Source: Planctomycetota bacterium (lineage in GTDB: Bacteria > Planctomycetota > Planctomycetia > Pirellulales > PNKZ01). From it: a stretch of 64,000 bases of DNA. Location: contig JAFEBQ010000005.1 of the NCBI GenBank assembly GCA_018242585.1, positions 1 through 64,000 on the forward strand, read 5' to 3'. The notes under the pieces were generated by a model. The model saw only the letters and a list, made by a program, of their open reading frames with translations. It was not told where the DNA came from and did not search any database. Positions 5,220-24,664 of this stretch are shown piece after piece (position 1 is the first letter of the stretch; the number at the start of each line of letters is the position of its first letter). A program made the position numbers and the translations under genes.

Positions 5220-7004
5220 GTGGCCGCTTGCTTTCCATTTCGAATCGCTGCCCTGTTGCTGTTTTTCACGGCGGCGGTGGCGACCTCTGCGCGGGCCGCT
5301 GAGCCGGCGGGGGAAAACCTGGCGGGCGATGCTCACTTGCGCCGGCCCGTGGCGGCGGCGTTCTTGCATGGCCAGCGGACCATTGCCGTGGCCAACGCGC
5401 GGTCGGGGAGCCTGAGCTTGCTCGATGCCGCGACCGGCCAGGTCCAGCGCGAAACAACGGTGGCCGAGTCGCTGTCGAGTCTGGTGGCGATCGACGACGA
5501 GCATGTTGTCGTGGCCGACCAGGACGCCGGTCGGCTGTATCTATTGCGCGTGACGGCCGACGGCATCGAGCGCCGCACTGAAGCTATCGTTGAAAACCCG
5601 GCCCGCCTGGCTTGGCACGCCAGGCAGCATTGCCTGGCGGTCGCTACTCTCTGGTCGCGCCGAATCGAGTTCTATCACTTCGAGCGCGATTCGGTGGACG
5701 GTGCCAGTCTCGTGTGCAACAAGCGCGACATCACACTCCCGTTCGCGCCGCGCTGCCTGACCTGGTCCCCCGATGGCCGCTGGTTGGTCGTGGCCGACGC
5801 CTTTGGGCCGAACCTGGCGGTGATCGAGGCTGAGCGCGGAAAGCTGCATGCGGTGCGGCAAATCCGCGGTCACAACCTGGCCGGCCTGGCGTTCGATCAC
5901 GCGGGCCGCAACGTACTGGTGACCCATCAACGGCTTGACCAGCACGCGCCGATTCTGCCCGACAACCTGGCGACCGGCACGCTGATGGACAACTTTCTCA
6001 GCGTCGTCGCGCTCGATGACTTGCTCGACGTGAAAGCGCGCGGCTCGTTGCGCACCTTCGAACTGCGACTGGGCATGCCCGACGATGGGGCCGGCGACCC
6101 GGCCGAAGTGGCGGTCCTCGACGAGCGGCGCTTGGCGATTTCGCTGGCCGGCACCAACCAGGTGGCCACGGTGATCGACCTGCACGAGGTGTCGATGCGG
6201 ATCAACGTCGGCGCGCGACCCGGTGCGCTCTTGGTGGCCGACAAAGGGGGCCGCTTGTTCGTCGTCAATCGGCTCGACGACTCGTTGGGCGCCGTAGACT
6301 GGCGGGGCGAGAAGCTTCTGGCCGAATGGTCGCTCGGACCGCGTGGGTCCGAGTATCCGCGCGATCGCGGTGAGCGGTTGTTTTACGACGCTCGCCTTTC
6401 GCCCGACCGGTGGATGAGTTGCCACAGTTGCCACACCGAAGGGCACACGGGCGGCCTGCTGGCCGACACGCTCGGCGACGAAACATTCGGCACGCCCAAG
6501 CGGACGCCGACACTGCTGGGCACCTCGATCACCGATCCGTGGAATTGGAGCGGCAGCCTCCGCGAGCTGCGCGACCAGGTCCGCAAGTCGTTCGACACCA
6601 CGATGCACGCCCCGCACGTCACGGTCGAGCAGGTTGATGACGTGGTGGCGTTTTTGCACACGCTCCGCCGGCCGCCACCGCTCGAGCCGCCGCGCGACGA
6701 CACCGACCGGGCGCAGATCGCCCGCGGACGCGCCGTGTTCGACGCGCGGGGCTGCGCCGCCTGTCACGTGCCGCCACTGACGTACACCTCGCCAGCGGCG
6801 TACGACGTGGGACTGGCCGACGAGCGCGGACAAGCGAAGTTCAATCCGCCGTCGCTGCGCGGCATCGGCCACTCGGCCGGCTACTTCCACGATCGCCGCG
6901 CCGCCACGCTCCGCGACGCATTCACCGAATACGGCCACCAGCTCGACGATCCGCTCACCTCTGGTGAGTTGGAAGACCTGCTGCGGTTCCTGCGCAGCTT
7001 GTAA
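5220..7004 (+). CDS. Secreted beta-propeller / diheme cytochrome c peroxidase-like protein, 594 aa
   Basis: Starts at a GTG and runs directly into a signal peptide (LLLFFTAAVATSARA). Residues about 40-370 form a YncE/YVTN-like beta-propeller with repeated 'VAVANARSGSLSLLD' type blades. Residues about 380-594 resemble the MauG/cytochrome c peroxidase domain, with two heme-binding motifs, CHSCH (near 400) and CAACH (near 517). It should be a periplasmic or cell-surface electron-transfer protein or peroxidase. No ATG in this frame precedes the signal peptide, which supports the GTG. It is the last chromosomal gene before the phage-derived cassette and ends 12 bp before a palindromic repeat. Confidence 0.8.
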   Translation: MAACFPFRIAALLLFFTAAVATSARAAEPAGENLAGDAHLRRPVAAAFLHGQRTIAVANARSGSLSLLDAATGQVQRETTVAESLSSLVAIDDEHVVVADQDAGRLYLLRVTADGIERRTEAIVENPARLAWHARQHCLAVATLWSRRIEFYHFERDSVDGASLVCNKRDITLPFAPRCLTWSPDGRWLVVADAFGPNLAVIEAERGKLHAVRQIRGHNLAGLAFDHAGRNVLVTHQRLDQHAPILPDNLATGTLMDNFLSVVALDDLLDVKARGSLRTFELRLGMPDDGAGDPAEVAVLDERRLAISLAGTNQVATVIDLHEVSMRINVGARPGALLVADKGGRLFVVNRLDDSLGAVDWRGEKLLAEWSLGPRGSEYPRDRGERLFYDARLSPDRWMSCHSCHTEGHTGGLLADTLGDETFGTPKRTPTLLGTSITDPWNWSGSLRELRDQVRKSFDTTMHAPHVTVEQVDDVVAFLHTLRRPPPLEPPRDDTDRAQIARGRAVFDARGCAACHVPPLTYTSPAAYDVGLADERGQAKFNPPSLRGIGHSAGYFHDRRAATLRDAFTEYGHQLDDPLTSGELEDLLRFLRSL

Positions 7005-7204: not shown

Positions 7205-7273
7205 GAGCCTGAACTTCTCAGGTATCCCAAGAGCCCGCGTCGAGACCACCTGCGTCTCGCCGCGGGCTTTTTT
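7205..7273 (+). promoter_or_regulatory. Two-hairpin leader with intrinsic terminator, copy 1
   Basis: GAG, then a small hairpin cctga-acttc-tcagg, then TATC, then a strong terminator hairpin (7232-7246 with 7254-7268, one mismatch) followed by six T. It lies 36 nt upstream of the holin-like start. The same order of elements recurs at 17772-17850 upstream of the prohead protease, with different stem sequences and lengths, which argues for conserved structure rather than copied sequence. It could be an attenuator or an anti-termination target. Confidence 0.55.
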
Positions 7274-7309
7274 ATTGGCCGCGCCTCGCACTCGCCCAGG
7301 GAGCGCGCG

Positions 7310-7606
7310 ATGGAAGCCCTTGGTCCCGGACTGCCGATCCTCGACTTCGGCAACCTCACGGCGACGGCCATCCTGGGTTGGTACGCCTGGCACACGGTTG
7401 CCAAGACCATCCCCGGCATCATCCGCGCCTTTCGCGAAGAGACGAGCGCCCTGCGGGCTGAATGCCGCGACGAGCGCGAGGCCCTGTATGTCGAACTTTC
7501 GGCCGAACGTCAGCAGCGACACCACGACACGCTGGCCGTCGTTGCCGCCTTGCACGAGCTATCCGCGCGGATCAGCGGCCTGGACCGCGCGGCACAACAG
7601 ACTTGA
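7310..7606 (+). CDS. Small one-TM protein, holin-like, first gene of phage cassette, 98 aa
   Basis: A short N-terminal stretch is followed by one transmembrane helix (about residues 16-36, TATAILGWYAWHTVA) and then a charged, helical, probably coiled-coil C-terminal half (REETSALRAECRDEREALYVELSAERQ). Size, topology and position at the head of the phage operon fit a holin or spanin-like membrane protein, but there is no specific family motif, so this is inference. The start at 7310 is chosen over an in-frame ATG at 7187 because the latter would run through the terminator at 7232-7273. Confidence 0.5.
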   Translation: MEALGPGLPILDFGNLTATAILGWYAWHTVAKTIPGIIRAFREETSALRAECRDEREALYVELSAERQQRHHDTLAVVAALHELSARISGLDRAAQQT

Positions 7607-7649
7607 TCGCCCCACATCACCACCCACGTTTCAATCGGAGCGCTTCGCC

Positions 7650-8057
7650 ATGACCGTCACCCCTTCTTGGCAATTGTCGGCCGCCGGGCTCGGCACGTTG
7701 CGACAGATTGTTTCGCTACTGGCCCAGGTGCGCAACCTGAGCGGCCCGCTCAACACCGCCGCCGGCTTGCGCGACGCGTTGGGCTTGCTGGCCCAGTTGG
7801 CCCAAGCGGCGGGCGTCGATGCCGCCTGGGTCGCGCGGATCACCCAGGCGCTGAACGACCCTGGCGTGTTCAACATCGTGCTGGCCCTGGTCCAGTACCT
7901 GACCGGCGGCGCGAGCACCGAGCAAGCCGACGGCGGCATCCACGCCACGGACGTCCACGGCGCGGCGGTCACGGTCAGCGCCGCGAGTCTGGCCGATTGG
8001 CTGCCGATTGTCGTGCAACTGGTCAGTCTGTGGAACCTGATTCGAGGCCAACAATGA
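7650..8057 (+). CDS. Phage-cassette hypothetical protein, 135 aa
   Basis: Ala/Leu/Val-rich protein with two hydrophobic segments (about 84-94, FNIVLALVQYL, and 116-130, WLPIVVQLVSLWNLI) that could be weak membrane helices, separated by a polar stretch. I do not recognise a family. Its stop overlaps the ATG of the downstream subtilase (ATGA), so the two are translationally coupled. It could be a second holin-like protein or a small partner of the protease. Confidence 0.5.
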   Translation: MTVTPSWQLSAAGLGTLRQIVSLLAQVRNLSGPLNTAAGLRDALGLLAQLAQAAGVDAAWVARITQALNDPGVFNIVLALVQYLTGGASTEQADGGIHATDVHGAAVTVSAASLADWLPIVVQLVSLWNLIRGQQ

Positions 8058-9163
8058 ACACTGCACCGATCTACCGCTTGCCCCCGTGGCGCTGCGAAGC
8101 GACCCTACGCGCCGAGCAATTGACCGAAGTGGTCGACTGGTCGCTGGCGGCGTATCACGTGCCCGACCAGTGGAAGACCACGATGGGTCAGAACGTCCGC
8201 GTGGCGGTCCTCGACACCGGCATCGACGCGACGCATCCCGACCTGGCCGCGGCCATCGACGCCACGGCCGACTTCACGGGCAGCCCGGTCGGCGCAAACG
8301 ATCGCCAAGGCCACGGCACCCACACCGCCGGCACAATTGCCGCGCGGCGCAACGGGCGCGGCGTGGTCGGCGTGGCGCCCGAATGCCGGCTGCTGGTCGG
8401 CAAGGTCCTGGGCGATGACGGCAGCGGCAGCGATCAGAGCGTCGCCGCCGGCATCGACTGGGCCGTGGCGCAAGGGGCCGACATTGTTTCGATGAGCCTG
8501 GGGAGTCCGCAGCCCAGCCCGGCGATCTATGCCGCGATTCGTCGCGCGTGCGACGCGGGCAAGTTCGTCGTCTGTGCCGCCGGCAACGACGGCGCGCAAG
8601 CCGACGCCGACACGATCAATTATCCCGGCCGCTGGAAAGAAACCGTGGCCGTCGCGGCCGTCGACAGCCAGGGGCACGTCGCCGAGTTTTCCAGTCGCGG
8701 TCCCGAGATCGACATTGCCGCGCCGGGCGTGAACATCTTGAGCACGTTTTTGAACTCGGGCTACGCCCGACTGTCGGGCACGTCGATGGCCACGCCTTTC
8801 GTGGCCGGCGTGGTGGCGCTGATGTTGTCGAAGCATCGCGCTCTGGGAAGCAGCACGCCGCTGGCCAATGTCACCGATCTGCGCGAGCACCTCCGCCGCA
8901 CGGCCACGCCCGCCGCGCCGCAAGAGCCCGACCCAGCGTACGGCTGGGGCCTGATCGACCCGAACAAGTTGGTGGCCGACGACGCGTCGCCAGTCGCCCC
9001 TCCGGCCACGATCGCGCCGCCAGCAACAAGTCCGCCGTCGATACCCGAGTTGCGTCAACCGATAACGCTGGTGATTGCCGGGCAGCCGATCGTCGGCGCG
9101 TGGGTCTTCACCCCCGACCAAGCAACCTCGCCGCCACCGACAAACACCGCGAGCGTCGCATAA
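8054..9163 (+). CDS. Subtilisin-like serine protease (S8), 369 aa
   Basis: Complete S8 peptidase domain. The catalytic triad is Asp54 (VLDTGID), His87 (GHGTHTAG) and Ser244 (SGTSMATP), with the oxyanion-hole Asn178 (AAGND). There is no signal peptide or obvious propeptide: the catalytic core starts by about residue 40. After the domain (about 310) comes a Pro/Ala/Thr-rich linker and a short C-terminal segment. Export as a normal secreted subtilase is therefore not supported; it may act in the cytoplasm or be packaged or attached to particles. The start overlaps the upstream stop by 4 bp. Its position inside a phage operon suggests roles in particle maturation, lysis or a cargo function, but none is proven. 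Confidence 0.85.
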   Translation: MNTAPIYRLPPWRCEATLRAEQLTEVVDWSLAAYHVPDQWKTTMGQNVRVAVLDTGIDATHPDLAAAIDATADFTGSPVGANDRQGHGTHTAGTIAARRNGRGVVGVAPECRLLVGKVLGDDGSGSDQSVAAGIDWAVAQGADIVSMSLGSPQPSPAIYAAIRRACDAGKFVVCAAGNDGAQADADTINYPGRWKETVAVAAVDSQGHVAEFSSRGPEIDIAAPGVNILSTFLNSGYARLSGTSMATPFVAGVVALMLSKHRALGSSTPLANVTDLREHLRRTATPAAPQEPDPAYGWGLIDPNKLVADDASPVAPPATIAPPATSPPSIPELRQPITLVIAGQPIVGAWVFTPDQATSPPPTNTASVA

Positions 9164-9222
9164 GCCCAGTCCGCTGCTCCCCGTCTAATCGCTAATAGCT
9201 AACCGCTAATCGCTTACCCAAC

Positions 9223-10617
9223 ATGTTTCTCCCCACGATCACGCTGCTGCTCATCACTTGCCTGACGCCGGCCGAGGCGGTGGCCGCGGCCTTGGCCGAT
9301 CTGGCGACGCAGCCCACCGAGCGCCACGGTCAGACGCGGTATTTGTTGCTGCTCGAAGCCGATGCTGCCGCACGCCAAACGACGCACCAGGCGGTCAGCT
9401 TCTTGTTGAACTCGGTCAGCCGCACGCGGACGATCACGGTTCCGCCGCGCGTCGGCGCCGATGGCTGGTTGATTCGCGTCGACCTGGCCGCCTGGACCGA
9501 CTTTCGCCAGCCGCAGGGTTATCAAGAGCTGTTCGCGGCCTGGGAACGCCTGGCCCGCGATGATCCCTACTTTCACCTTCGCACCCAAGTACTGGCCAAG
9601 GGGAAGTTGCGCGAGGTGACCACCGACGGGGGCTGGGTCGGCTTGGAGCCAGCGGCCCAGTTGCGCGAAATGACCGGCAGCTTTGGCGCCGTCTTGCGCG
9701 CCGACTACTTCATTAGCGCCGTCGCCGCCGAGGCGTACTACGAGTGGGCGGGCATCCCCGCGACCGAAGCGGAGTTCTTCCGCCAGTTCGGCGTCGATCC
9801 CGACGAGGCCACGCGGCTGTCGGCCGACAGCGCCGCCAACCTGCTCCGCTCGCGCGTCACCCAGAAGCCGCGCCGGATCATCCAGCGGCCGGGCTTGTTT
9901 GGCGGTGTCTGGCACACCAAGGATGTTGACGGCGAGTCACCCGATCGCGACCCGGTGCGCAACCCGATCGACTTCGCGCCGCAGCGGTTCAACTTTCAGG
10001 CGTCCGAGTTCTTTGCGATGGGGGCGAATCGCCTCTGGCGCGTCGCGCTGTACGACGCGGCCGGCCGCCGGCAAGAGACCGTCCCCGATCGGGTCGCCAA
10101 GGATTTTACGGGCGATGGCATCATTCGCCCGCTGGTCAGTTGTCTGCGCTGTCACGATCGGCTCGGCGGCCAGTCGGGCTTGCAACCGTTCGCCGACGAT
10201 CAGGCCGAGCTGATGGCCCGAGTCGGCTTGCAAAGCTACGAGCCGCAGATCGCTCAGCGACTGCAAGAGCTGTACGACCCAGCGAGGTTGCATCAAGCGA
10301 TGCAGCGTGACCGGGAAGATTACGCGGCGGCCGTGGCGCTGGCGACCGATGGCATGACGCCCAAGGAAGCGATTGACGCGCTGGTCGCCGTCTATACGCG
10401 CTATGTCGATGTGCCGGTCACGCTATCGCGCGCCGCCGAGGAATTGTGCGTCAGCGAGCAGCAACTGGCCGCGGCGCTGGCTGAAAGCCGAGACCCAATG
10501 GCCCTGGCGCTCGTGCTGGGCAAATCGATCAATCGCGCGGCCTGGGCTTCGGCCTTTGGCGACGCGGCGCTGCGCGTGGCGGCACACGCAAGTCCAAATG
10601 ACACGGCGAAGGAGTAA
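9223..10617 (+). CDS. Secreted protein with one heme c motif, 464 aa
   Basis: The N-terminus is a signal peptide (MFLPTITLLLITCLTPAEA). A single CxxCH (CLRCH, residues 307-311) predicts one covalently bound heme c. The rest resembles planctomycete periplasmic cytochrome-like proteins (conserved-looking YYEWAGIPATEAEFFRQFG and long helical C-terminal half) but I cannot assign a family. It lies between a phage-type subtilase and a second cytochrome-like gene, and begins 59 bp after the subtilase stop. Heme proteins are not a normal part of tailed-phage late operons. Either this block is a host cargo insertion or the particle genes have been captured into a host operon. Confidence 0.65.
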   Translation: MFLPTITLLLITCLTPAEAVAAALADLATQPTERHGQTRYLLLLEADAAARQTTHQAVSFLLNSVSRTRTITVPPRVGADGWLIRVDLAAWTDFRQPQGYQELFAAWERLARDDPYFHLRTQVLAKGKLREVTTDGGWVGLEPAAQLREMTGSFGAVLRADYFISAVAAEAYYEWAGIPATEAEFFRQFGVDPDEATRLSADSAANLLRSRVTQKPRRIIQRPGLFGGVWHTKDVDGESPDRDPVRNPIDFAPQRFNFQASEFFAMGANRLWRVALYDAAGRRQETVPDRVAKDFTGDGIIRPLVSCLRCHDRLGGQSGLQPFADDQAELMARVGLQSYEPQIAQRLQELYDPARLHQAMQRDREDYAAAVALATDGMTPKEAIDALVAVYTRYVDVPVTLSRAAEELCVSEQQLAAALAESRDPMALALVLGKSINRAAWASAFGDAALRVAAHASPNDTAKE

Positions 10618-10621
10618 ACGC

Positions 10622-11170
10622 ATGGCAAAGCGGTTGATGATGTCGTTGGTGGTTGCGGCGTGCTGCATCGCGAGTTCCGCGCCATTGCAAGCCGGCGGGC
10701 GCGCAGTCGTGGTCGCTAGCGCGACAGCCGTGCCGGCCGGTGTCGTCGTGACGCAATTCGCCGTCCCCGTGGCGGTGCCTCAGTATGCCGTGCCGGTCGC
10801 GCCGCAGAGTTACGTCCAATACGGCGGCCAGGTCGGGGCGGCGACACCGCTCGAAGGGCTTGAAGATCGGATCGCCGCCAAGGTGGTCCGCAATCTGCAA
10901 GCGGCCGGCGTCAACAGCGCGCTGGCCGCGCCGCCGAGCCTGATCGCGAAACATTGCGGCTCGTGCCACAGCGGCGCCACGCCCAAGGCGGGTCTCGATT
11001 TGACGAGCCTGGCGGCGCTCGGCGAAACCCAGCGTTTGAGCTGCATTGCCCGCGTGTTGGCCGACGACGCCTCGCAGCGAATGCCGCCAGCCGCCAGCGG
11101 CGCGAAGCTGACGGCCGAAGAAGTGGGTCGATTGTTGCAAGAGTTGTCTCAACCGGTGAAAGGAAAGTGA
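10622..11170 (+). CDS. Small secreted monoheme cytochrome c-like protein, 182 aa
   Basis: Signal peptide (MSLVVAACCIASSAPLQA) followed by a Val/Pro/Gln/Tyr-rich low-complexity stretch (about 25-70). A small cytochrome c-like domain then carries CGSCH at 112-116 and a later possible axial Met in QRMPPA (near 157). The spacing of heme motif and MPP motif is that of a class I cytochrome c, as found in the planctomycete 'cytochrome C' domain. The gene starts 5 bp after the preceding heme-protein gene, with GGAG just upstream, so the two are co-expressed and may exchange electrons. Confidence 0.75.
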   Translation: MAKRLMMSLVVAACCIASSAPLQAGGRAVVVASATAVPAGVVVTQFAVPVAVPQYAVPVAPQSYVQYGGQVGAATPLEGLEDRIAAKVVRNLQAAGVNSALAAPPSLIAKHCGSCHSGATPKAGLDLTSLAALGETQRLSCIARVLADDASQRMPPAASGAKLTAEEVGRLLQELSQPVKGK

Positions 11171-11173
11171 ACC

Positions 11174-11485
11174 ATGAAATGTTTTTTGGTCGGACTGTTG
11201 GCGTTGTCGGGTGGATTGTTGGGTGTGGCTGGCGCCAAGGCGTGCCCGCCGGTCGCGGTGTCGAGTGCGGTTGCTTTGTCGAACGGTTGCCCGGTCGCCG
11301 TCGGTGGCGCGTTGACGACGCAAAGCGTCCTCGTCGCGCCGCTGGTCACGACGATCCAGCCGTCGGTCGTGGTCCAATCCCCCGTGGTGGTCCAGCAGCA
11401 AGTGGTCCGCGCCCGGGTCGTGCAGCCACGACAAGTCACGCGGCAACGCTCGGTGACGCGGATTGGCGGCTTGGGGATGTTTTAG
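11174..11485 (+). CDS. Small secreted low-complexity protein, 103 aa
   Basis: Signal peptide (MKCFLVGLLALSGGLLGVAGAKA), then a Val/Gln/Ser/Thr-rich mature part of about 80 residues with two cysteines (ACPP, NGCPV) and a basic C-terminus. Its Val/Gln-rich composition matches the low-complexity stretch of the upstream cytochrome, so the two may have a shared origin or location. It begins 3 bp after the cytochrome stop. Function unknown. It closes the heme/secreted block, and a palindromic repeat follows. Confidence 0.6.
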   Translation: MKCFLVGLLALSGGLLGVAGAKACPPVAVSSAVALSNGCPVAVGGALTTQSVLVAPLVTTIQPSVVVQSPVVVQQQVVRARVVQPRQVTRQRSVTRIGGLGMF

Positions 11486-11499
11486 GCGGCCTGGTCTTA

Positions 11500-11668
11500 C
11501 ACCTCTCCCTCCTAGGGAGAGGTCGCGAGCGGAGCGAGCGGGTGAGGGTCGAGGCGTTCACTGCCAGGACGCTCTGCGCCAGGCGACATCCGCTGAGCGC
11601 AGAGCTTTTTGGCCAGTGACGCTTTCACCCTCCCCCCTGCCCCTCCCTGAAAGGGAGGGGTGTTTGTC
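11500..11668. repeat. Family-C palindromic element, copy 1
   Basis: Element bounded by ctctccct/agggagagg hairpins at the left and ccctccctgaaagggaggg-tgtt at the right. The related copy is at 20638-20800, and a right-end fragment is at about 50330-50380. It fills most of the gap between the secreted block and the ParB-like gene. Confidence 0.75.
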
Positions 11669-11715
11669 GCGCACGCCTGGGTGATGGGCATCAATATTCA
11701 TCGCAAAAGGAGAAC

Positions 11716-12279
11716 ATGCTCATGCAAGTCCGTGATCGGATCGTGGAGTTCATCCGCGTGCCGGCGCGCTCGTTGCGCCCCAATCCGCGCAACTGGCGGA
11801 CGCATCCACCGGCCCAACAAGATGCCCTGCGCGGCTTGCTGGCCGAGGTCGGTTATGCCGAGGCGCTGGTCGCGCGGCGCCTGAATGATGGCGAGCTGGA
11901 ACTGATCGACGGCCACCTGCGGGCCGAGACCACGCCCGACATGGACGTGCCGGTGCTGGTCGTCGATGTCAGCGATGCCGAGGCGGACAAGCTGCTGGCC
12001 ACGCTCGACCCGCTGGCCGCCCAGGCTGGCGCGGACGAAGCGTTGCTGACCGAACTGCTGTCCCGCGTCGAGACCGAGCACGACGCCGTGCGGCAGTTGC
12101 TCGACTCGCTGCTGAAAGACTCCGACACCGCCGCTCCGACGGAACAAAGCGCGCCGCCCGACGTGAACATCGATGCGCTGTTTCAGGTGGTGGCCGAGTG
12201 CCGCGACGAAGCCGACCAGAAGTCGCTCTTCGAGCGTCTGCAAGCCGAGGGCTACCAATGCCGGCTGTTGATGCTTTGA
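11716..12279 (+). CDS. ParB/sulfiredoxin-like nuclease-fold protein, 187 aa
   Basis: The N-terminal 100 residues match the ParB N-terminal domain seen in phage proteins: V-P-(A)-x-S-L-R-P-N-P-x-N-W-R near 15-28, and ELIDGHLRAE near 59-68 in place of the usual GxxR box. There is no HTH centromere-binding domain, so this is not a partition ParB. An acidic helical C-terminal half follows. Phage ParB-like proteins occur as nucleases or NTP-binding factors and in DNA base-modification loci. An in-frame ATG at 11722 is 9 nt after AGGAG and may be the real start, because the first ATG is only 3 nt from it. The next gene, an ABC-ATPase/GNAT fusion, probably works with it. Confidence 0.75.
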   Translation: MLMQVRDRIVEFIRVPARSLRPNPRNWRTHPPAQQDALRGLLAEVGYAEALVARRLNDGELELIDGHLRAETTPDMDVPVLVVDVSDAEADKLLATLDPLAAQAGADEALLTELLSRVETEHDAVRQLLDSLLKDSDTAAPTEQSAPPDVNIDALFQVVAECRDEADQKSLFERLQAEGYQCRLLML

Positions 12280-12376: not shown

Positions 12377-13501
12377 ATGCCACAACTGACCATCCAACTC
12401 GACTGTCCCCTGTATGACTCGTTCCGGGTCCAGCAATTGGCCGGGATGTTCGACGTGCCGCTCGCGCGAAAGCTTTCGGAGAGGTTTGACGTCGAGGTGC
12501 CCGACCTGGCGGCCGATGATTGGCGGATCGGCTTGATCGTCGGGCCGAGCGGCAGTGGCAAAAGCACGCTCGCCCGCCAGTGGATCGGCGCGCACCTCGC
12601 GGAACCGGCCCCCTGGCCCGATGATGCGGCCGTGGTCGATGGTTTTGGCGACCGGCCGATCAAGGAGATCACCGGGTTGCTGACCGCGGTTGGTTTCAGC
12701 TCGCCCCCGTCGTGGATCAAGCCGTACCGCGTGCTCAGCGGCGGCGAAAAGTTCCGCTGCGATCTGGCTCGGGCGTTGGCGCTCGTCGGACGCGATGCAG
12801 CGCCGGCCGGCGCGACGCCGATCGTGGCCTTTGACGAGTTCACCAGCGTCGTCGATCGGATCGTCGCGCAAATCGGTTCGGCCGCGGTCGCCAAGGCGAT
12901 TCGGCAGAGGCGGGCCCGCTGTCGCTTCGTGGCGATCACTTGCCACTACGACGTGGCCGAGTGGCTGGAACCTGACTGGGTGGTTGATATGGCCGCGCGG
13001 CGCGCCGAGCGGAGGCGTCTTCGGCGGCCGGCGATCGAGCTGCGCATCGGCCGCACGCACCGGGACACGTGGCGGCTGTTCGCTCGTCATCACTATCTGA
13101 GCGGCCAGCTCGCGCCGACCGCGCGTTGCTACCTGGCCACCTGGCGCGACGCGCCGGTTTGCTTCTGCGCCCTGTTGCCGGCGCTCGGCCGGCGCGGGCA
13201 CTGGCGGATTTCGCGCGTTGTCACGCTTCCCGACTTTCAGGGGATTGGCATCGGCCTGCGCGTGGCCGAGGGGATTGCCGAACAGTATCGGCGCGATGGT
13301 AACCGTGTGAACATCACGGCCAGCCACCCGGCGCTCTTGGCCCACTGTCGCCGGTCGCCGTTGTGGCGCGCGGTGCGCGTGGTGAAGACCGGCCGGCGGA
13401 GCCCGACGTTTTTGAAGCACTACCGCGCTTCGGCTGGCCGCGCCGTGGTGTCGTTCGAATACTTGGGACAACAACCCGCCGCAGGTGAGCACGCCCTATG
13501 A
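12377..13501 (+). CDS. ABC-type ATPase fused to GNAT acyltransferase domain, 374 aa
   Basis: Two domains. Residues about 45-205 are a soluble ABC ATPase: Walker [10 protein letters not shown] (56-64), signature LSGGEK (120-125), Walker B VAFDE (150-154) and switch His190. Residues about 218-374 are a GNAT fold with the acetyl-CoA loop QGIGIG (288-293) and an HHYLSG motif near 238-243. No membrane partner is encoded, so this is not a transporter. The arrangement matches the known 'ABC ATPase fused to acetyltransferase' family. The GNAT part also recalls Mu Mom, a GNAT-fold DNA adenine modifier. Its position beside a ParB-like gene and before terminase suggests nucleic-acid modification, which is inference. 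Its last codons overlap the next start (ATGA). Confidence 0.8.
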
Positions 13502-13992
13502 CCGCCAAGCCGCGCACCATCTTGGATGAAGTCAAGCGCCGCGAGATCTGCGCGATCGTGAGCGTCGGCGCCACGCGCACCGTGGCGGCCCGCTACGTTG
13601 GTTGCAGCGTGGTGACGATTCGGCGCGCGGCCTTGCGCGACAAGAAGTTCCGCGGACAATTGCTCAAGGCCGAGTCGCACAACGAAATCGCACAGCTCCA
13701 AAACCTGCAATCGGCTTCGAAAAAGGCGCAATACTGGCGGGCGGCGGCCTGGATGCTCGAACGCTGCTATCCGCAGCGCTACCGCTCGCGGCCGGTCGAC
13801 ACCGTGACGATGGAGCAAGTCGGGCCGGTGCTCGAGCAGATGGCCGAGTTGATCGCCAGCGAAGTCAGCGACCTGAACGATCGTCGCCGCATCCGCGCCA
13901 AGCTGCGCCGGCTGGTGAACTTTGTCTTGCGAAGGCGCAAGCCCGCGGCGCGTCGACGCACGACCACCAACAAACGGAAGCCCGCGTCATGA
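13498..13992 (+). CDS. Terminase small subunit-like HTH protein, 164 aa
   Basis: An N-terminal helix-turn-helix (about 20-50: [25 protein letters not shown]) is followed by a helical middle and a very basic Arg/Lys-rich tail. Size, fold and its position directly before the large terminase fit a small terminase that recognises phage DNA for packaging. It is coupled to both neighbours by 4-bp ATGA overlaps. The family assignment rests on position plus the HTH, not on a diagnostic motif. Confidence 0.7.
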
Positions 13993-15587
13993 GCGCACGT
14001 CCGGTTACCACACGTCTGTCGCAGCGCCGTTTGCGCCGGCAATTGTTCGGCCGGTTGCAAAGCGCCCTGCGCCAGCGCGCCACGACGGCCGGCGAGCGGT
14101 TGCCGTTGCTGGCCTGGGGGAGGAAATACCTGCCCGAGCATTTCGCGTCGCCGCCGTCGGCCATGCACCGCTGGCTCGAAGCCGAGTTCGCCGCGATGGA
14201 GCGCGAGCGCGGCACGAAGCTGAACGTGATCGGCCCGCGCGGCAGCGCCAAGAGCACGCTCGGCACGCTGGCCTGGCCGCTGCGGTTGGCGGTCGACGGG
14301 ACCGAGCCTTACGTGTGGATCATTTCCGATACCAAGCCGCAGGCGCTTGCGCATCTGGCGAACCTGCGGAACGAACTGCTCGACAATCCGCGGCTGGCGC
14401 GCGATTACCCCGGGGCGGTCGGTCGGGGCTTGCGCTGGCGCGGGCCGTCGATCGTGCTCAAGAACGGCGTGACGATCGAAGCGTTTGGGACCGGACAGCG
14501 GATACGCGGGCGTCGGCGTGGCGCCGCGCGGCCATCGTTGATTATTTGCGACGACTTGCAGAACGACCGGCATATGGTTTCGGCCCAGCAGCGCCAGCGG
14601 TCGCGCGATTGGTTCCACGGCATGTTGCTCAAGGCGGGCAATCGGCGGACCAACGTCGTGAATCTGGGGACGGTGCTTCATCGCGAAGCGTTGATGCTCG
14701 AACTGGATCGGACGCCGGGCTGGCGCTCGCGGATCTTCCGGGCGATCGAACGCTGGCCCGAGAACATGACGCTGTGGAGCGCGTGGGAGCAGCTTTATAC
14801 AGACCTGGACGACGCGGAACGGGCCGCGCACGCGCGCGAGTTCTTTGACGCGCACTTCGAGGAGTTGACGCGCGGCGCGGTGGTCCTCTGGCCCGAGCAG
14901 GAGGATTTGTACGCCCTGATGCAAATGCGCGTGGAAAGCGGCCGGACGTCGTTCGAGCGCGAGAAGCAAGGCTCGCCGCTGGCGCCGGAACTGTGCGAGT
15001 GGCCGGCGGAATACTTTGACGAGCCGTTGTGGTTCGACGCCTGGCCCGCGCGGACCCAGGTGCGGACGATGGCGCTCGACCCCAGCAAAGGGACCGACGC
15101 CGCGCGGAGTGATTACTCGGCGTATGTGCTGCTGGCCGTTGACCCGCAGGGGGTGTTGTACGTCCAGGCCAACCTGGCCCGGCGGCCGCTCATGCAAATG
15201 GTCGCTGACGGCGTCGAGCTGTTTGCGCACTTCCGCCCCGATGGACTGGCGATCGAGAGCAACCATTTTCAGGAACTGCTCGCGCCTCTGTTCGCCGACG
15301 AGGCGGCCAGGCGCGGCATGCTGCCGATCAACCCCTGGCTGTTGAACAACACGACGAACAAGCAGACGCGGATTCGCCGACTGGGAGCGTATCTGGCGGG
15401 ACATCGGTTGCGATTCAAGGCCGGCTGTCCCTCGACGGCGTTGCTGGTCGAGCAGTTGCAGGAGTTCCCGCTGGCCGACCATGACGACGGGCCCGACGCG
15501 CTCGAGATGGCCATTCGACTGGCGGCCGAACTGTTGAACGCCCCGCGCGACGACGGCCTGGGCCGGCGATTGCCAGTGAGCGGGTGA
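13989..15587 (+). CDS. terL: Phage terminase large subunit, 532 aa
   Basis: DNA-packaging motor and nuclease. ATPase motifs: Walker A GPRGSAKST (82-90), Walker B LIICDD (184-189) and a coupling motif around VNLGTVLHR (224-232). The RNase H-like nuclease domain shows Asp364 (ALDPSKG), Glu423 (IESN) and the terminal acidic DDGPDALEM near 505. All key residues are present, so it looks functional. The start at 13989 overlaps the small terminase stop; a much longer in-frame opening to 13602 lies inside the small terminase gene. It belongs to the packaging block terS-terL-portal. Confidence 0.92.
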   Translation: MSARPVTTRLSQRRLRRQLFGRLQSALRQRATTAGERLPLLAWGRKYLPEHFASPPSAMHRWLEAEFAAMERERGTKLNVIGPRGSAKSTLGTLAWPLRLAVDGTEPYVWIISDTKPQALAHLANLRNELLDNPRLARDYPGAVGRGLRWRGPSIVLKNGVTIEAFGTGQRIRGRRRGAARPSLIICDDLQNDRHMVSAQQRQRSRDWFHGMLLKAGNRRTNVVNLGTVLHREALMLELDRTPGWRSRIFRAIERWPENMTLWSAWEQLYTDLDDAERAAHAREFFDAHFEELTRGAVVLWPEQEDLYALMQMRVESGRTSFEREKQGSPLAPELCEWPAEYFDEPLWFDAWPARTQVRTMALDPSKGTDAARSDYSAYVLLAVDPQGVLYVQANLARRPLMQMVADGVELFAHFRPDGLAIESNHFQELLAPLFADEAARRGMLPINPWLLNNTTNKQTRIRRLGAYLAGHRLRFKAGCPSTALLVEQLQEFPLADHDDGPDALEMAIRLAAELLNAPRDDGLGRRLPVSG

Positions 15588-15814: not shown

Positions 15815-17215
15815 ATGATCGACAGCACTCATCAACCGGACGACGTAGGCACCCTGAATCGTTTACAGCAGCGGCTCCGCGAAGCTTGTGATGACTTGTG
15901 GAGCAGCTTCGTCGACCCGCGCGAGCCGTTTTATGACGACGGCGGCGAGTGGCTGGCCTTGGGGGCCGCGGGAGAGGCCTTCGGCGTGCGCGGCGCGCCG
16001 TTCACCACCGAGGTCGAGCTGCGCCAGATTCGCCTGCACGCGCGTCGGCTGGCCGTGGGGAATGAGTTCGCGCTTAACGCCTTGGAGAATCGGGTCAACT
16101 ACCTGGTCGGCGCGGGGCACAACTACCGGGCCGCGCCGGTCAAGGGACGCGCGCCGGCGGTCGAGGCGGTCGCGGCCGTGCAGCAGTTGCTTGACGACTT
16201 TGTCCGCGACAATCGTTGGCACCGCCGACAGCAAGAGCTTGTCCTTCGCGCCGACCGGGACGGCGAAGCGTTTCTGCGATTCTTCTTCGCGCCGGACGGA
16301 ACGACGCGGCTGCGGTTCGTCGAGCCCAGCCAGGTGAGCACGCCCCCCGACGTGCCCGCGAGCCCGGCCGACAGCCTGGGCATTCAAACCGAGACGGACG
16401 ATGTTGAATCGGTCGTCGGCTATTGGATCGACGGCCAGTTGATCGCCGTCGACGAAGTACAACACCGCAAGGCCAACGTCGATATCAACGTCAAGCGCGG
16501 CTTGCCCTTGTTGTTCCCAGTGGCCAAGAACCTGCGCCGGGCCGAAAAGCTGTTGCGTAACATGACGACCGTAGCCGAGATTCAATCGGCCATCGCCTTG
16601 ATTCGCCGGCATCGCAACGCCACGCGCGGGGCGCTCCAGCAATTTGTCGCCGGGCAGGCCGACGCCACGCAGGCCGGGCCGGCGGGACGCGCGGCTTACC
16701 TGAAGCGTTACGCGCCGGGGACCATTCTCGACGCCCATGCCGACGTCGACTACGAGTTCCCGACCGCGGGGCTCGACGCCGGCAGCTTTGTCACGGTGCT
16801 GCAAGCCGAGTTGCGGGCGATTGCTGCGCGGTTGGTGATGCCCGAGTTCATGCTCACCAGCGACGCCTCGAACGCCAACTACGCCTCGACGATGGTGGCC
16901 GAGAGTCCGGCCATTCGGATGTTCGAGCGGTTGCAGGCGCAGTTGATCGAAGACGACTTGGACGTGTTGTGGCGGGTCGTGCGTCACGCGGCCCGGGTCG
17001 GTCGCTTACCGGCCGACGTGGCGGCACTGGTCGAGATTCAAGCGGTCCCGCCGTCGCTGGCCATGCGCGATCGCCTGCAGGAGGCCCAGTTATACAAGCT
17101 GCAATACGAGGCGGGTCTGTTGTCGCCGCAAACCTGGAGTCAACTCAGCGGGCTCGATTACGACCAAGAGCAGGCCAACTTGGCACAAGCGCGCAGCAAA
17201 GAAAAAAAGTCATGA
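15815..17215 (+). CDS. Phage portal protein, 466 aa
   Basis: Portal of the lambda/SPP1-like superfamily. Consistent features are early FALNALENRVNYLVGAGHNY (about 88-108), a middle alpha/beta stem region, VEYW-type block VVGYWIDGQLIAVDEVQH, and the central helix region RRAEKLLRNMTTVAEIQSAIALIRRHR. Length is in the normal 400-550 range. A dodecameric portal would connect capsid and tail and feed DNA through terminase. The start at 15815 is supported by TTTAGGAG 8 nt upstream. The long in-frame upstream opening is repeat sequence. Confidence 0.85.
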   Translation: MIDSTHQPDDVGTLNRLQQRLREACDDLWSSFVDPREPFYDDGGEWLALGAAGEAFGVRGAPFTTEVELRQIRLHARRLAVGNEFALNALENRVNYLVGAGHNYRAAPVKGRAPAVEAVAAVQQLLDDFVRDNRWHRRQQELVLRADRDGEAFLRFFFAPDGTTRLRFVEPSQVSTPPDVPASPADSLGIQTETDDVESVVGYWIDGQLIAVDEVQHRKANVDINVKRGLPLLFPVAKNLRRAEKLLRNMTTVAEIQSAIALIRRHRNATRGALQQFVAGQADATQAGPAGRAAYLKRYAPGTILDAHADVDYEFPTAGLDAGSFVTVLQAELRAIAARLVMPEFMLTSDASNANYASTMVAESPAIRMFERLQAQLIEDDLDVLWRVVRHAARVGRLPADVAALVEIQAVPPSLAMRDRLQEAQLYKLQYEAGLLSPQTWSQLSGLDYDQEQANLAQARSKEKKS

Positions 17216-19444: not shown

Positions 19445-20611
19445 GTGAAACCGATCCAATATCGCGAGATCAAGCGACGCTGCGAGCTCGACGGAGTTCA
19501 GCGGGCCACGGCCCACCTGGCGGAAGCCCTGCGCGACAAAGTGCTGCAACCCGAAAGTTTCAGCCTGCGCGACCTGGCCGAGGCGCTGGTTCCCGACGGG
19601 CATCATTGGGTCCGCTCGTTGGACCCGCGCAACGGCGGTGGCACGAGCTTGCTCGAAGCCAGCGACGGCGTTGATGTGTCGGCGTTCTTGAACATCACCG
19701 GCCAGGTGATCTACGCCCGGGTGATGGAAGCCTATACGCAAGAGGCGTTCGTCGTCTCGAAGCTGGTCGACACGGTTCCCACTCGGCTCGACGGCGAGAA
19801 GATTCCCGGCGTCACGCGGATTGCCGACGACATCGACGAAATCGCGCCGGGCATGCCCTACCCTTCGCTCGGCTTCGGCGAGGACTATATCGAGACGCCC
19901 TCAAAGTCCAAGCGCGGCTTCATCGTGCCGGTGACCAAGGAGGCGATCTTCTTCGATCGGACCAACCTGGTCCTGGCCCGGGCCGCCGAGGTCGGCGAGC
20001 TGTTGGGCTTGAACAAGGAGAAGCGGCTGCTCGATTTGGTGATTGGCACGACGAACAACTACAAGTGGCGCGGCACGGCGTACAACACGTACGCCAGCAG
20101 CGGCGCGTGGGTGAACGTCAAGAGCGGCAACGCGCTGGCCGACTGGACGAACGTCGACGCGGCCGAGCAACTGTTCGCCGAGATGCTCGATCCGAACACG
20201 GGCGAGCCAGTGCTGGTCCAGCCGAACACGGTGCTGGTCATGCCAGCCTATCGCCACGCGGCGCACCGCGTGTTCTACGCGCCCGAGCTGCGCTACACGA
20301 CCGGCGGGGGCCCGACCTCGACGGCCATCGCGCGCAACCCGTTGGGCGATTACCAGGTCTATGACAGCCGGCTGGCCTATCGCCGGTTGCTGGCGGCGGG
20401 GGTTTCAGAAGCCAACGCGCGGCAGTACTGGTTCCTGGGCGATTTCCGCAAGGCGTTCGCCTACATGGAAAACTGGCCGATCACCGTCACCCAGTCTCCC
20501 ATGAACAGCGACGCCGATTTCGACGCCGACATTGTCGTGCGGTTCAAAGCCAGCGAACGAGGGGCGGCCGCCGTGCTCAACCCGCGCTATGTGGTGAAGA
20601 GCACGAACTAG
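19445..20611 (+). CDS. Phage major capsid protein, 388 aa
   Basis: Starts at GTG, 7 nt after AAGGAG; the nearby ATG at 19439 is followed by a stop. The N-terminal helix-rich arm (about 1-60) is followed by a capsid core with DRTNLVLARAAEVGELLGLNKEKRLLDLVIG and VLVMPAYRHAAHRVFY. The stretch RQYWFLGDFRKAFAYMENWPITVTQ and a terminal VRFKASERGAAAVLNPRYVVK strand are typical of HK97-type capsid C-terminal regions. Size and neighbours support the call, although the exact family is not certain. Confidence 0.8.
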   Translation: MKPIQYREIKRRCELDGVQRATAHLAEALRDKVLQPESFSLRDLAEALVPDGHHWVRSLDPRNGGGTSLLEASDGVDVSAFLNITGQVIYARVMEAYTQEAFVVSKLVDTVPTRLDGEKIPGVTRIADDIDEIAPGMPYPSLGFGEDYIETPSKSKRGFIVPVTKEAIFFDRTNLVLARAAEVGELLGLNKEKRLLDLVIGTTNNYKWRGTAYNTYASSGAWVNVKSGNALADWTNVDAAEQLFAEMLDPNTGEPVLVQPNTVLVMPAYRHAAHRVFYAPELRYTTGGGPTSTAIARNPLGDYQVYDSRLAYRRLLAAGVSEANARQYWFLGDFRKAFAYMENWPITVTQSPMNSDADFDADIVVRFKASERGAAAVLNPRYVVKSTN

Positions 20612-23657: not shown

Positions 23658-23756
23658 GTAGGTCAGGCCTTGGCCTGACATTGTTGTGGTCAATTCTCGC
23701 AAACGACTCTCGAACGGCTTGTTCGCACAATATCGTCAGGCTGAAGCCTGACCTAC
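23658..23756. repeat. Family-B palindromic element, copy 2
   Basis: Same 22-bp left arm as copy 1 (23658-23679). The right arm 23735-23756 has drifted (gtcaggctgaagcctgac). Total length 99 bp, as in copy 1. It lies between two phage structural genes. Confidence 0.85.
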
Positions 23757-23800
23757 GGAAATGTGTCGTCTGCTCTTGGCAGGTAAACAGGAATTGCATC

Positions 23801-24664
23801 GTGGCGACTGGCTTTGCAACGCAACTGGCGATCGATACCGAGCTGCCGGCCCGGCGTGGCTTGGAGTTCGACGCGGTCGAGCTGCGCGCGCAACCTTCGC
23901 AACGAAATAATCCCGGTCTCGGCAGCGGGGACGCCGCGCTAGCCACACAGGCTTATCCCGGCACGATCGCGGTCGGCGGACGAGTGCGTTTGTTTCCGAC
24001 ACCGGCGGATTGGCTGGCCCTGTTGCCGTGGCTGGTTGGCCCGGCCGGTGACGATGGCAACTTCGCGCCGGTTGACCAGGTAGCGACACGGTATCTGGTC
24101 GTCGATAACACGCTGGAAGTCTTGACCTATGACCAGTGCGCCGCGGCTCGGGTCGAAATCTCGGCCGCGCGGCAAGAACCGGTCACCTTGCACATCGACG
24201 TCATCGCGCATGGCGAAACGGTTGGCGAGGCCAGCACGTTTCCGCCCGTGATCTACGGTACAGGGCAGCCATTCTTGTTCGGCGACGCGACGTTCACGTT
24301 TGCCGGGGCCGAGCGACCGCTGGAAAGGTTCCACCTGCGGATCGATCGCCAGCTTCGGCAGCGCTATGTCAATTCACGGCTGGCCACGTGGGCGACCCCT
24401 GGCAAGCGGGTGGTGACGTTCGAGGCCTGGCTGCCGTGGACCAGCGAGACCGTTGATTTGCACGCAACGCCTGTGCCCGGGCCGGCCACGCTCAGCTTGG
24501 TTCAAGGAGCCGCGTGGGTTGTGTTTCGGTTCGATCGCTGGCAACCACTGCCGATTGCGCCCACCACACCAGGACGCCAGTTCCTCGGTCTGGCGCTGGC
24601 TGGGCAGGTCGATCGCGCCGGCGGCGCGGCCGAATTGCAAGTCAGCGTTTCAGGCGTGACCTGA
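23801..24664 (+). CDS. Phage structural (tail-tube-like) protein, 287 aa
   Basis: Starts at a GTG 8 nt after AGGA; no ATG lies between the repeat and the first protein-like residues. Beta-rich 287-residue protein with FDAVELRAQP, VLTYDQCAAARVEISAARQEPVTLHIDVIA and FHLRIDRQLRQRYVNSR, resembling tail-tube or similar sheath-forming phage proteins in size and strand pattern. No metal or enzyme motif. Its proximity to the next two structural genes supports a particle role. Confidence 0.55.
   Translation: MATGFATQLAIDTELPARRGLEFDAVELRAQPSQRNNPGLGSGDAALATQAYPGTIAVGGRVRLFPTPADWLALLPWLVGPAGDDGNFAPVDQVATRYLVVDNTLEVLTYDQCAAARVEISAARQEPVTLHIDVIAHGETVGEASTFPPVIYGTGQPFLFGDATFTFAGAERPLERFHLRIDRQLRQRYVNSRLATWATPGKRVVTFEAWLPWTSETVDLHATPVPGPATLSLVQGAAWVVFRFDRWQPLPIAPTTPGRQFLGLALAGQVDRAGGAAELQVSVSGVT

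Follow-up and report, generated by a model that had tools for sequence, protein, structure and literature searches.

The window (the whole stretch of DNA that was analysed, 64,000 nucleotides of contig JAFEBQ010000005.1 from a Planctomycetota bacterium of the order Pirellulales) contains a block of closely spaced genes, in which two exported c-type heme proteins are encoded directly after a protease. The block and its features were located as follows:

7249..7276, forward strand: terminator-like hairpin with a T run, the upstream edge of the operon, 5' of TMs
7313..7606, forward strand: TMs, about 97 aa, with one moderately hydrophobic segment and a charged coil-like tail; opens the block
7650..8057, forward strand: hol, a small protein of 135 aa with a C-terminal hydrophobic segment, labelled holin-like
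8054..9163, forward strand: subtilase (SUB), a leaderless Peptidase_S8 with intact catalytic motifs
9223..10617, forward strand: H464, an exported 464-aa monoheme c protein of a family without a Pfam model
9718..10257, forward strand: heme domain of H464 (residues 166-345), with a P460/c'-beta-like fold predicted from two AF2 models
10141..10155, forward strand: residues 307-311 of H464, the heme c motif CLRCH, unchanged in all 35 homologs aligned
10622..11170, forward strand: CYT (549-bp gene), an exported PSCyt1-type monoheme cytochrome c
10955..10969, forward strand: residues 112-116 of CYT, its heme c motif CGSCH, invariant in the alignment
11174..11485, forward strand: sec, a 103-aa Val/Pro-rich secreted protein with a basic tail and zero acidic residues

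ORF coordinates bore out the content and order of the four genes that the original prediction had placed at 8054-11485 (subtilase, 464-aa heme protein, monoheme cytochrome, and small secreted protein), with a spacing of 3–59 bp. There is a 4-bp overlap between the ATG of the subtilase (8054) and the stop codon of the gene at 7650-8057; subtilase and H464 are separated by 59 bp, H464 and CYT by 4 bp, CYT and sec by 3 bp, and sec and the ParB-like gene (11716) by 230 bp. Strong hairpins resembling that at 7249..7276 were present just 5' of the same gene in two related loci (L069 and L073). A consensus scan of the coding strand detected no sigma-70-like site, and such scans across the compared loci revealed neither a consistent terminator between the block and ParB nor a consistent promoter/terminator pair isolating the block, an arrangement that had been named beforehand as evidence against its place in the late operon. 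In the 230-bp gap (11486-11715), palindromes rich in GC and a single weak match to a terminator were seen.

The genes that follow the block form the packaging half and the beginning of the structural genes:

11716..12279, forward strand: ParB-like gene (phrog_620/723, E ~1e-9), in conserved order; opens the packaging half
12377..13501, forward strand: ABC-type ATPase-GNAT acetyltransferase fusion (phrog_11143, E 3.9e-96)
13498..13992, forward strand: terminase small subunit, terS (phrog_4102, E 3.2e-10)
13989..15587, forward strand: terminase large subunit, terL (phrog_38, E 3e-72)
15815..17215, forward strand: portal (PF05136, E 1.2e-19)
19445..20611, forward strand: major capsid (PF25209, E 1.4e-15)
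23741..24664, forward strand: tail tube (PF18906, E 4.8e-9)

These Pfam and PHROGs matches to terS, terL, portal, capsid, and tail tube confirmed the phage late setting proposed for the locus. The heme genes are part of this late gene neighbourhood and, as had been stated, unusual in it; to our knowledge, conserved late genes of phages do not include heme c proteins as an established class.

Comparison of cassettes as loci of up to 20 kb revealed the conserved order ParB – ABC/GNAT – terS – terL – portal – protease-like – decoration – capsid. The ABC-ATPase/GNAT fusion (12377-13501) was kept between ParB and terminase in nearly all cassettes. Flanking genes common to several families were MoaB-like and exonuclease/phosphatase-like (by inspection). 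The portal gene was detected in 84 of the 117 genomes of the order, usually as a single copy, and in the portal tree the nine host families required 8 changes, which is the minimum possible (shuffled mean 26). Since the portal is so widespread and its tree tracks the host families, the cassette is vertically inherited. Integrase or replication genes were not recognised by Pfam scan among the window ORFs at ~4-32 kb. From these genomic data, we read the cassette as a domesticated, GTA-like element of Pirellulales, with DNA transfer as its putative activity. It resembles gene transfer agents of the RcGTA type in being a vertical, mostly single-copy head-tail gene set next to which neither integrase nor replication genes were recognised, but it differs from RcGTA in residing in an unrelated host phylum and in carrying a heme/protease module, and its DNA packaging and transfer are putative.

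Two alternative modules were found upstream of ParB among the compared cassettes. Type I, as in the window, consists of TMs, hol, a hydrolase, H464, CYT, and a small secreted protein. Type II, represented by 14 cassette loci, has a trypsin-like protease (PF13365, E 2.7e-21) and a second small gene, without the H464/heme pair. In the type II cassettes at L091-L106, the heme block is replaced by the trypsin-like protease and conserved genes of clusters c6, c23, and c29. H464 of the split type, encoded separately from the cytochrome, was present in 26 genomes; in 20 of them it lay on the same contig as cassette genes, and in five the contig ended just downstream. One genome (G009) had the heme block detached from the packaging genes. 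Another (G003) had a standard cassette without the heme block, plus a separate divergent phage-like copy. The divergent phage-like locus L080, on contig C10 of G003, carried subtilase, H464, cytochrome, terL, portal, and capsid genes. The search for the block in related cassettes thus had a divided outcome: it keeps its place in many families, but many cassettes of the order, the type II loci among them, have no heme pair at all, and in G009 the block is detached.

Homologs of TMs (36-65% identical) occupied the same place in most H464-bearing loci; no Pfam or PHROG family was found for TMs, and its hydropathy was weak. Homologs of hol (30-43% identical) occurred at the equivalent position in related loci, and small proteins comparable to hol were recognised by eye in phages L116 and L183. 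The term "holin-like" given to hol by the original prediction has only weak support, from position and modest hydropathy: the KD19 hydropathy peaks of the two small proteins were only 1.1 and 1.6 (the latter for hol), and family profile searches yielded no match for hol.

The subtilase matched Peptidase_S8 (PF00082, E 1.3e-64) and the protease family phrog_3677 (E 1.9e-84). Its D/H/N/S motifs were intact, and the H/N/S motifs were kept in relatives. A signal-like N-terminus was absent from the window subtilase and from the other hydrolases tested. The hydrolase of type I cassettes varied: it was mostly a subtilase, with a papain-like protein (assigned by inspection; Pfam gave no match) in some loci of families f19 and f16 and a GH16-like one in two loci (by inspection). 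In phages, Pfam identified Peptidase_C1 in L116 and L184, and weakly in L183, and astacin in L187. The hydrolase type is therefore exchanged (S8, papain-like, astacin, GH16-like) while the heme pair persists. Searches with the subtilase query found no viral relatives of the protein. A role of the subtilase as prohead protease was considered and dropped, because another conserved gene already occupies the usual place of such a protease, between portal and capsid.

Pfam scans of 16 H464 members and an hmmsearch of the family against PDB sequences returned chance matches alone. The CxxCH motif of H464 was invariant in 16 of 16 cassette homologs and in 35 of 35 homologs aligned. CYT was assigned to PSCyt1 (PF07635, E 7.6e-6; 26.9 bits vs. 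a cut-off of 22, with CxxCH), and in its alignment with phage partner cytochromes both CxxCH and an MP motif were invariant in 8 sequences. Because of this invariance, the heme motifs of the two proteins are not due to chance. Every named H464 relative in GTDB contigs belonged to Planctomycetota, and several were Pirellula or Pirellulales. H464 was under purifying selection like the packaging genes, with dN/dS of ~0.1-0.18 in the closer pairs, values that are rough because dS was high.

AF2 modelled full-length H464 with a pLDDT of 80 and a pTM of 0.84, and the heme domain, from 28 sequences, with a pLDDT of 87 and a pTM of 0.84. The leading VIA-align matches for both models were cytochromes P460/c'-beta, with modest Z scores (6.0/5.4/4.6 and 6.3/6.1/5.4). 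Foldseek gave nothing significant for the full and domain models against PDB or for the full model against BFVD. An hhalign comparison of H464 with PF16694 sequences reached 78%, over just 38 columns around CxxCH. On these models, the fold of the H464 heme domain is likely, but unproven, to be nearest to cytochrome P460/c'-beta. The likeness to that family (PF16694) lies in the predicted fold of residues ~166-330 and in the position of CxxCH near the domain end; unlike P460/c'-beta proteins, H464 has no sequence-level match in Pfam or PDB, possesses extra N- and C-terminal parts, and has a partner cytochrome encoded by the adjacent gene.

Signal-like N-termini were detected on H464, CYT, and sec. 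Small proteins resembling sec in composition and position were found 3' of the cytochrome in phages L183, L184, and L188. Heme of the c type is attached outside the cytoplasm, and the pair should therefore act in the envelope and not within capsids.

H464 with a nearby monoheme cytochrome was found in 9 free phages, i.e., 8 distinct IMG/VR phages and LR756511.1, an unannotated 595-kb record of an "uncultured phage". In the phages examined (L116, L117, L183, L184, L186, L187, L188, L189, and L192), the relatives of H464 were roughly 20-31% identical, and the cytochrome gene lay directly 3' of H464 or within ~2 kb downstream in 9 of 9. Their partner cytochromes had long N-terminal extensions. 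Phage genes without a Pfam match were identified by inspection. The 595-kb phage has a row of genes for a secreted protein, a papain-like peptidase, a small hydrophobic protein, H464, the cytochrome, and a small Val/Ala-rich secreted protein. In L116, a small hydrophobic protein, a papain-like peptidase, H464, and the cytochrome are followed by ParB-like and terminase-small-like genes; in L187, astacin lies 3' of the cytochrome, ahead of terminase-like and portal-like genes. In L188, H464 and the cytochrome are a few genes apart. In L117, the pair lies directly 3' of the capsid gene and no hydrolase was seen alongside, so the tie of the pair to release does not hold throughout. Terminase, portal, primase, or DNA polymerase genes were recognised by inspection in several H464-bearing phages. 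In INPHARED, the window H464 query gave a match, and no match was found for the L116 H464 protein or the window portal. The description of huge phages published in 2020 (PMC7162821) does not mention cytochromes. A deep-sea planctomycete releases a chronic phage, described without cytochromes (PMC10945688). In the open-access library that was searched, neither a planctomycete GTA nor a conserved pair of phage cytochromes c is described.

Weak matches to H464 in host chromosomes were proteins of one chain, in which a PSCyt1 domain is followed by an H464-like domain. Such fused diheme proteins were seen at loci L119, L120, L122, L123, and L124, several of them adjoining ECF-sigma-like genes; at L124, a caspase-like protein is encoded nearby (by inspection). 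Since host relatives fuse the PSCyt1 and H464 domains, H464 and CYT probably form one redox unit. They share with the host fusions (PF07635) the combination of a PSCyt1 monoheme domain and an H464-like heme domain; the host form is a single polypeptide near ECF-sigma-like genes, whereas phages and cassettes use two separate genes. The host fused form and the phage/cassette H464 were split by a 100/100 branch, with SH-aLRT of 100 in a second tree. The 595-kb phage branched first within the split group in the SH-aLRT tree, and cassette L121 grouped with phages, although the long branches make the details of the H464 trees unsure. This topology fits a single origin of the split two-gene form and speaks for joint action of its two products.

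Judged by its distribution, the heme block appears to be a conserved viral gene set, and both sources first offered for it, host cargo and a moron, are disfavoured. Host cargo fits poorly with the split pair in 9 distinct free phage genomes, set apart from host relatives by the 100/100 branch. A moron fits poorly with a block that in many families stays where it is, flanked by the small hydrophobic/hydrolase genes on one side and ParB/terminase on the other, and that is not consistently isolated by a promoter/terminator pair. We consider it very improbable that the genes were recently caught by chance in this cassette; their absence from type II cassettes, the detached block in G009, and the host relatives of the domain would agree with such an event, but they are kept over several host families and in the phages in a form separate from that of the host. 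The third suggestion, that particle genes had joined an electron-transfer operon, looks reversed: the pair is viral, and the closest relative in the host is one fused diheme protein, encoded at a different place in the chromosome.

We hold with moderate confidence that the block is a phage envelope module, and with low confidence any view of its chemistry. As the same gene set is found in free phages, it seems that these phages bring along a small redox unit of their own, meant for the envelope of the host cell. The fuller proposal, to which we give an even chance, is that 7313-11485 is a phage-derived envelope module within a vertically inherited, GTA-like Pirellulales cassette and acts late, together with a release hydrolase. 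The leaderless hydrolase would reach the envelope with the help of the small hydrophobic proteins and open the cell late in the cycle. H464 and CYT would be exported and acquire heme c in the periplasm, where H464, with its probable P460/c'-beta-like site, and CYT may together exchange electrons with a small N- or O-species or with the respiratory chain. The pair might keep the envelope energised, or clear reactive species, until the particles are released; an effect of the envelope redox pair on the timing of release, or protection, is our working hypothesis.

The pair could instead be an auxiliary metabolic one, serving host respiration or the detoxification of NO, hydroxylamine, or ROS during infection, with its position beside a hydrolase a consequence of late-operon packing and unrelated to release. 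The predicted P460/c'-beta-like fold, the pair 3' of the capsid gene in L117, and the spacing of its members in L188 agree with this explanation, which we regard as possible at clearly less than an even chance; that hydrolase and small hydrophobic genes persistently adjoin the pair, in the majority of cassettes as well as in L116, L183, L184, and L187, speaks against it. An improbable alternative is that the heme proteins decorate or accompany the released particles. The late operon position and the long N-terminal extensions of the phage cytochromes would suit such proteins, but c-type heme is added outside the cytoplasm and capsids are assembled inside, which makes capsid cargo unlikely, and the proteins have signal-like N-termini.

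The envelope module that we favour resembles phage lysis cassettes in that its late operon places an exchangeable hydrolase without a leader next to small hydrophobic proteins. Muramidases or amidases are typical of lysis cassettes, whereas the hydrolases here are proteases or glucanase-like, the holin role is putative, and the module additionally encodes two exported heme proteins of the c type and a secreted protein rich in Val/Pro. Plastocyanin and PTOX of cyanophages are auxiliary electron-transfer genes, host photosynthesis genes carried by phage. They are likewise phage-borne redox proteins, but the redox proteins described here are an exported heme c pair, encoded in the late operons of phages with apparent ties to Planctomycetota. 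Tentatively, and with distinct reserve, we propose that Planctomycetota phages of ordinary size and up to 595 kb possess a dedicated extracytoplasmic redox system, made up of a P460-like heme protein and a cytochrome c, that governs or protects envelope energetics at particle release and that was kept when one such phage became a domesticated, GTA-like cassette across Pirellulales. If this is true, these phages would manage the redox chemistry of the host envelope late in infection. The heme pair also offers a marker by which phages of planctomycetes can be found, and it points to a GTA-like element in planctomycetes.

Several minor features of the window were recorded. A 594-aa CCP_MauG-type diheme protein is encoded at 5220-7004, just upstream of the block; it was rejected as a member of the system, as its gene sits before the hairpin and is missing from the cassettes of relatives. 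The GC-rich palindromes at 11486-11715 could serve as an attenuator ahead of ParB. The gap between subtilase and H464 contains, at 9179-9215, a dispersed short repeat, a sequence of 32-36 bp with ~24 further close copies in the 5.6-Mb genome.
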